DNA from: Symbiotaphrina buchneri
Taxonomy: Eukaryota; Ascomycota; Symbiotaphrinales; Symbiotaphrinaceae
Direction of reading: 5' to 3'
Length of the DNA stretch: 64,000 bases
Assembly (NCBI GenBank): GCA_001599915.1
Contig: BCIG01000029.1
Location: 4,654 to 68,653 of the forward strand
A program made the translations under genes and the position numbers. The notes beneath the pieces are model-generated. The model had not been told where the DNA came from, searched no databases, and was given only the letters and a program-made list of their open reading frames with translations. This document shows positions 9,583-10,005 of the stretch, piece after piece. Within the stretch, counting starts at the first letter, position 1; each line of letters starts with the position of its first letter.

Positions 9583-9980
9583 TCAGCTAAATACGTCCCG
9601 TATGCCCTGATACGCCGGCTTCTTCACCAAATTCTCATCCCACGGCAGCGCCGCTCCATACCCTGGAAACGTACTCGGCACCCAACTATACTTATCCGTA
9701 TAATCCCAGACTGTAATGCCCACACACTTCTGCACCTGCAAGCACGCCGCAACCGTACTCTGATAATCTGTTGTCTGCTGCTGCAGAGCCTCCTCAGTCG
9801 CAGGGACCGTCGTACGGATATCCAGCTCCGTGACGGCGACTTCCACGCCTAGCGCTATAAAGGCGTTCATGTTGGCAACTTACACGGCGGTGCTTGGGCT
9901 AATGCCGACGATGAAGTGTGACTGTAAACCGACGTCATCGATGCGTGCGCCGTAGGATTGGATAAGACGCACCAGGGAGA
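9583..9980 (-). pseudogene. 3' remnant of a GH10 endo-1,4-beta-xylanase gene
   Basis: Read on the minus strand from 9980, the sequence gives [16 protein letters not shown], then [16 protein letters not shown], then [14 protein letters not shown], and continues to [20 protein letters not shown] and a natural end near [12 protein letters not shown]. This is the C-terminal third of a glycoside hydrolase family 10 xylanase. TELDIR carries the catalytic nucleophile glutamate of that family, and the WDYTDKYSW block is also characteristic. Everything upstream, including the acid/base half of the barrel and the signal peptide, is missing because the homology stops where telomere-like repeats begin. 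A TAA also interrupts the frame just before VANMNAF. The fragment cannot encode an active enzyme. Confidence 0.88.
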
Positions 9981-10005
9981 GGTTAGGGTTAGGGTTAGGG
10001 TTAGG
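9981..10005 (+). repeat. Interstitial telomere repeat tract (TTAGGG)
   Basis: Four TTAGG(G) units in tandem, with the G-rich strand on plus, lie flush against the broken GH10 gene. TTAGGG is the telomere repeat of most filamentous ascomycetes. The orientation is that of a chromosome end pointing toward higher coordinates. Confidence 0.9.

Follow-up and report, generated by a model that had tools for sequence, protein, structure and literature searches.

Why does a xylanase gene stop in mid-exon at a telomere repeat array that lies inside a contig? The locus belongs to the ascomycete Symbiotaphrina buchneri (assembly of 23.4 Mb, 82 contigs) and was studied in a stretch of 64,000 nucleotides (C29:4654-68653), referred to as the window. 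An earlier, sequence-only reading had seen in it a broken chromosome healed by new telomere addition and later buried inside a chromosome, and had named a telomere-repeat patch inserted during break repair as the alternative. The features are listed in Table 1; L and R denote the left and right ends of contigs.

Table 1. Features at the xylanase-telomere junction, in window coordinates
Feature	Position	Strand	Remarks
GH10 xylanase, 3' part, pseudogene	9583..9978	-	Covers ~185-310 of the 311 Pfam positions; 3' end retains the gene's own stop codon
Ambiguous junction bases (GA), n=2	9979..9980	+	From alignment to C17 paralogue
Perfect telomere tract GGTTAGGGTTAGGGTTAGGGTTAGG	9981..10005	+	Chromosome end pointing right, outward for left-hand DNA
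Degenerate telomere-like sequence CTAACTAAGCCTAAGCTAAC	10006..10025	+	Orientation opposite to tract; taken as worn telomere-proximal edge of right-hand end
Repeat, RIP-mutated	10006..15578	.	5 copies in assembly; 85-90% identity to other four
Fixed inner end of repeat CCTGACCCTAACCCCCRGGCGCCCACAAT	15550..15578	+	Holds one CCCTAACCC motif; 5 places genome-wide, control 0
Broken ORF within repeat	10604..13492	-	Related to metagenomic proteins of ~620-1120 aa that match nothing in Pfam or, for the one searched, in PDB

The tract consists of 4.2 copies with a period of 6 and matches the telomere repeat at 100% of its 25 bp. After the two ambiguous bases it reads GGTTAGGG...TTAGG. The last codon that could be aligned with the intact paralogue on C17 is 9976-9978, so the earlier statement that the homology ends at 9980 and the array starts at the next base was accurate within 2 nt; the description of the array as perfect and oriented as a chromosome end was confirmed. 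Outward-oriented telomere repeats sit directly on truncated non-telomeric sequence, the arrangement by which a healed end is recognised.

Such arrays are rare in this genome. (TTAGGG)2 with at most one mismatch gave three matches in the window, all within the tract (0.26 expected from shuffles). Seven contig ends carried exact (TTAGGG)3, which otherwise occurred genome-wide only at three non-terminal places (C8:683, C19:628660 and the window tract on C29). The reversed control gave none, and about 0.004 such 18-mers are expected per genome (any phase, equal base frequencies). When one mismatch was allowed in a 17-mer, three extra scattered places appeared along with one control match. Two-repeat motifs marked at least six interstitial loci, including the three (TTAGGG)3 ones (100 of 104 places listed). 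Because the reversed control gave nine matches, the two-repeat sites on C5, C6 and C10 are not above chance, and they were discarded as further scars. The other two non-terminal tracts are (CCCTAA)3 (C8:683-700 and C19:628660-628677); an 11-base match, GCCTCGGTAGA, perhaps due to chance, adjoins the C19 tract and also the telomere at C15L. That the window tract is an accidental or regulatory TTAGGG motif (e.g. a Tbf1-type site) at the edge of a decayed gene is extremely unlikely. Telomere-like motifs do act as protein-binding sites in yeast according to excerpts of PMC6410037, but here 25 perfect bases stand at the very point of gene truncation, with the rest of the gene missing and next to no such 18-mers expected.

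The gene on the left was identified by its ORF 9583-9879 (minus strand), which matched the Pfam GH10 profile at positions 219-310 of 311 (E 4.8e-29). In a six-frame search of the genome the match of the fragment to PF00331 grew to positions 185-310 (window 9595-9981), interrupted by a single in-frame TAA. It is without its 5' half, and the homology is lost mid-exon, since the intron of the intact two-exon paralogue (C17:24260-25289) falls near profile position ~128, not at 185, where the xylanase is cut. The same search yielded five matches, representing three genes (on C4, on C17 and the window fragment). An N-terminal half was not detected on the far side of the tract or anywhere else in the 23.4-Mb assembly, which is incomplete and was searched apart from C29:1-4653; a simple insertion into the gene is ruled out for this reason. 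The patch alternative in its simple form, as a patch in a continuous gene, is likewise not supported; a patch made in joining unrelated ends is considered below.

Over 126 codons the fragment and the C17 paralogue share 81% amino acid and 78.3% nucleotide identity, with dN 0.144, dS 0.752 and dN/dS about 0.19 (one stop codon left out). No other relative among the 120 listed of 4047 matches exceeded 70.4% identity. From the dN/dS, and because the C17 gene was the closest of the sequences compared, we infer that this copy was a working paralogue over a long time and was truncated afterwards. If this is true, a secreted-enzyme paralogue would have been lost by chromosome-end truncation after long purifying selection. 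Derivation of the xylanase from a distant fungus was ruled out, the best match among the sequences compared being the paralogue in the same genome. The left block (1-9600) had no second DNA match in the genome; it is single-copy and carries no end marker on the left side, and the absence of a second copy rules out a recent duplication of the block.

For comparison, the telomere-bearing contig ends were inspected. There are seven of them (C3R, C6L, C7R, C15L, C15R, C27L and C33L), with 7.3 to 20.5 repeats, and at five the first repeat is AGGGTTAG. The 300-base pieces beside the terminal arrays matched only their own places in the genome, except the C15L piece (74% over 100 nt at C3); for C6L the piece began at base 160, on the far side of variant repeats. 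A recognisable Pfam domain is cut at two of the seven. The C7R telomere starts inside a PS decarboxylase domain (profile 37-187 of 198), and the C15L telomere inside an FAD oxidoreductase (2-73 of 353) whose frame runs into the telomere. The other ends covered by the Pfam scan were C15R, C33L and C3R, whose ORFs matched no family. Because the C7R and C15L arrays start inside enzyme domains, telomere addition onto coding DNA occurs in this genome, and these gene-internal telomeres support the healed-break step of the model given below. The earlier proposal of a broken chromosome healed by telomere addition was thus supported in part, by the orientation, the abruptness, the lost distal half and the comparable contig ends. 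C15 has a telomere at both ends (C15:1-94 and C15:722146-722239) and is apparently a complete 722-kb chromosome, with the FAD oxidoreductase cut on its left. At C6:1-150 the telomere is followed by the variant repeats CCCTAAGCAAAA and CCCTACGCAAAA.

The length of these arrays bears on a rather unlikely alternative, in which two unrelated broken ends, one inside the xylanase and the other inside or at the edge of the 5.6-kb repeat, were joined and in the process acquired about four repeats from telomerase or a telomeric fragment, so that the tract was never a working telomere. Its 4.2 copies are typical of short interstitial telomeres and far fewer than in most terminal arrays, and the genome holds two other non-terminal (TTAGGG)3 sites, on C8 and C19. 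In excerpts of PMC8537989 short arrays are described as inserted at breaks together with deletions and added bases. Such patch repair leaves unexplained, however, both the inverted telomere-like bases that follow the tract and the chromosome-end features of its partner.

These inverted bases, CTAACTAAGCCTAAGCTAAC, are the densest CTAA cluster on the plus strand of the window and the only place on that strand with four CTAA within 22 bases; on the minus strand the sole such place is the tract itself. Aligned to (CCCTAA)n they scored 13. This score was reached by 1 of 5000 Markov sequences and by 1 of 9127 background 25-mers, the latter located at the opposite end of the 5.6-kb repeat. Among AT-rich stretches it was reached in 3 of 3019, all overlapping at 15539-15545, which is again the other end of the repeat. 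A 7-bp inverted repeat spans the junction point of the tract and CTAACTAAGCCTAAGCTAAC. The left of the two opposed arms is perfect over 25 bp; the right one (20 bp) is degenerate but unusual in comparison with the controls. The sequence-only reading had mentioned neither the inverted stretch at 10006-10025 nor the repeat that follows it. Its claim that the array is buried inside a chromosome is supported, and the partner looks like another chromosome end, placed head-to-head.

The repeat on the right was found from ~10712 to 15580 to match C9, C1, C17 and C4. All five copies have a common inner end, and the other side of each faces the nearest contig end. The segment 10006-10711 had no match elsewhere in the genome (single-copy); judged by position and composition, it probably belongs to the repeat. 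Transitions made up 593 of 601 substitutions relative to the C17 copy and 744 of 748 relative to C9, with an excess of C-to-T at CpA and CpG; on this substitution pattern the repeat is a target of repeat-induced point mutation (RIP). RIP and TTAGGG telomeres would both be in keeping with a filamentous ascomycete. The broken ORF had seven relatives (E <= 0.001) among 7997 scored candidates; for one of these relatives, P0121 (1079 residues), the window copy extends to residue 993. Protein searches detected the ORF on C9, C1, C17 and C29 only, with stops in every copy. P0121 gave no match in a PDB search, and an AlphaFold model of the family (P0121 as first sequence, seven rows) had a mean pLDDT of 50.7, too low for use in a fold search.

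The identification of the repeat as a RecQ telomere-linked helicase was ruled out, such a domain being absent by Pfam from the element pieces and the relatives. Next to the C1 copy lies a gene in which three separate ORF pieces match OrsD, DEAD (slightly below Pfam's cut-off) and Helicase_C, a combination which we take to be the pattern of fungal telomere-linked helicases. This gene occupies, in several ORF pieces, about 2400-7100 of C1 piece L039 on the minus strand. Its central piece was found once in the genome, on C1, so the gene does not represent a many-telomere family here.

A quite unlikely alternative takes the repeat for a mobile element, or one associated with ends, that normally carries telomere-like repeats at its outer terminus and became joined to the broken xylanase. 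This would fit the presence of CCCTAACCC also at the inner end and the fact that the window copy alone has the outer 700 bp, and excerpts of PMC7367193 and PMC8381367 describe magnaporthe-type telomeric elements as generating interstitial telomeres. Against it, Pfam detected no reverse transcriptase or other mobility domain in four element pieces (the window copy being heavily mutated) or in the seven relatives, and the TTAGGG tract and the inner CCCTAACCC are opposite in orientation. On C9 (piece L026, 5155-5460) a frame that by eye resembles a protein kinase is open up to the inner end of the repeat; because it runs straight into this end, the repeat there may sit on a broken gene. A related idea, speculative and hardly probable, is that the repeat is an end-capping element which, by an inner end with built-in TTAGGG, attaches to broken genes and loses its outer side variably. 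If so, the window would hold the fossil junction of a telomerase-capped (xylanase) and an element-capped end.

Could the junction be a product of assembly? The first 364 bases of C1 (C1:1-364) occur at 36 places genome-wide, at least 22 of which coincide with the first or last base of a contig and one of which is clearly internal. In the two copies that were read, C1 and C9, this repeat ends in CTAG followed by T, a terminus that looks like a Helitron-type 3' end. The contig ends near the C1 and C9 copies of the 5.6-kb repeat are thus stops of the assembly at this dispersed repeat and not proven chromosome ends. Nearness to a contig end is therefore weaker evidence of a chromosome end than it had seemed initially. 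Half of the 36 matches (18) break off after 93-98 bases, a figure that points to the overlap length of the assembler. Because the 25 bp of the tract are well below this length, joining by the tract alone is unlikely, and the assembler probably read through the junction. Misjoining of two contigs at their telomeric ends is accordingly very unlikely: there are 82 contigs, many ending at one dispersed repeat, but TTAGGG and CCCTAA ends share no sequence overlap, the tract is far shorter than the apparent overlap, and the window contains no N.

We give an even chance to a fusion origin, in which the tract would be the scar left where a healed, gene-truncating chromosome end met head-to-head a second, probably subtelomeric one. 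The left-hand DNA would have been broken in the xylanase exon, where it now ends in TTAGGG oriented as a new chromosome end and the distal half is not found. Telomerase would have healed the break to a working end, as presumably at the other gene-internal telomeres of this genome. The right-hand DNA, with its opposed degenerate repeats and an end-facing five-copy repeat, resembles an old chromosome end. The healed end would then have shortened to about four repeats, lost protection and joined the worn second end, with head-to-head TTAGGG|CTAA-like DNA as the predicted product. This product, having two centromeres, would subsequently break or lose one of them, or keep only a fragment of one partner. 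The working telomere stage, the fusion and the stabilisation of the product are what we infer from the arrangement. Homologous recombination between telomere arrays cannot have produced the inversion, because it would keep their orientation. Several points speak against fusion. Two fresh telomeres would at first form symmetrical arms, yet here a perfect left arm faces a short, poor right one. CCCTAACCC is also present at the inner end of the repeat, so that the telomere-like bases could be part of the element. Further, the contig ends near the C1 and C9 repeat copies are not proven chromosome ends, the helicase piece matched C1 alone, and a Pfam domain is cut at just two of the seven telomeric ends.

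A healed gene-cutting end with head-to-head fusion features is real, is explained in outline and is of a kind already known. The comparisons that follow hold for excerpts of the papers cited. Head-to-head interstitial telomeres of the fusion type, such as human 2q13 (PMC6410037, PMC8537989), are alike in their opposed arrays at one point, of which the right one here is only telomere-like, and in a right side that appears end-type; the scar in the window differs in being very short (25 + 20 bp), with a degenerate right arm and a left arm that starts in a gene. Vertebrate short interstitial telomeres at double-strand breaks (PMC8537989) share the few perfect hexamers and abrupt edges, but their flanks were continuous in the ancestor, whereas in the window the missing half of the xylanase does not follow beyond the tract. 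In de novo telomere addition 19 of 24 events were seeded by 1-4 nt (PMC7367193). The window is similar in that the repeats begin at most 2 nt from truncated coding sequence at an AG/AGG-type junction; unlike additions at broken ends, its product is now internal.

Pyricularia oryzae (PMC8381367, PMC7367193) likewise has few-repeat tracts near ends, telomeres on truncated sequence and repeats bounding subtelomeric elements. It carries 2-21 sites of at least three repeats per 40-45 Mb genome, compared with three non-terminal sites in 23.4 Mb here. Its internalised telomeres are mostly in native orientation, while the window tract is directed away from whichever contig end is nearer and abuts an opposed telomere-like array, and no MoTeR-like retroelement was found here by Pfam in the element pieces and seven relatives. 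Telomere internalisation in the blast fungus is known from sequence and from telomerase knock-outs, and breakage-fusion-bridge events are stated to be not yet detected or explored there (PMC8381367); such a cycle is described for an accessory chromosome of Zymoseptoria (PMC3681731). If the fusion reading is true, 45 bp would record two successive end failures, a break healed in a metabolic gene and then end-to-end joining, and a dated head-to-head scar in another ascomycete would permit testing telomere internalisation by strain comparison.

Three further features of the window were noted. Left of the xylanase, positions 7001-8000 are very AT-rich (25% GC), and a large ORF at 4871-5939 (minus strand, 303 aa), with a further ORF upstream, had no Pfam match and possibly encodes a secreted protein. 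For the transporter at 16172-17674 the best-matching relatives come from ascomycetes, at 64% and lower.
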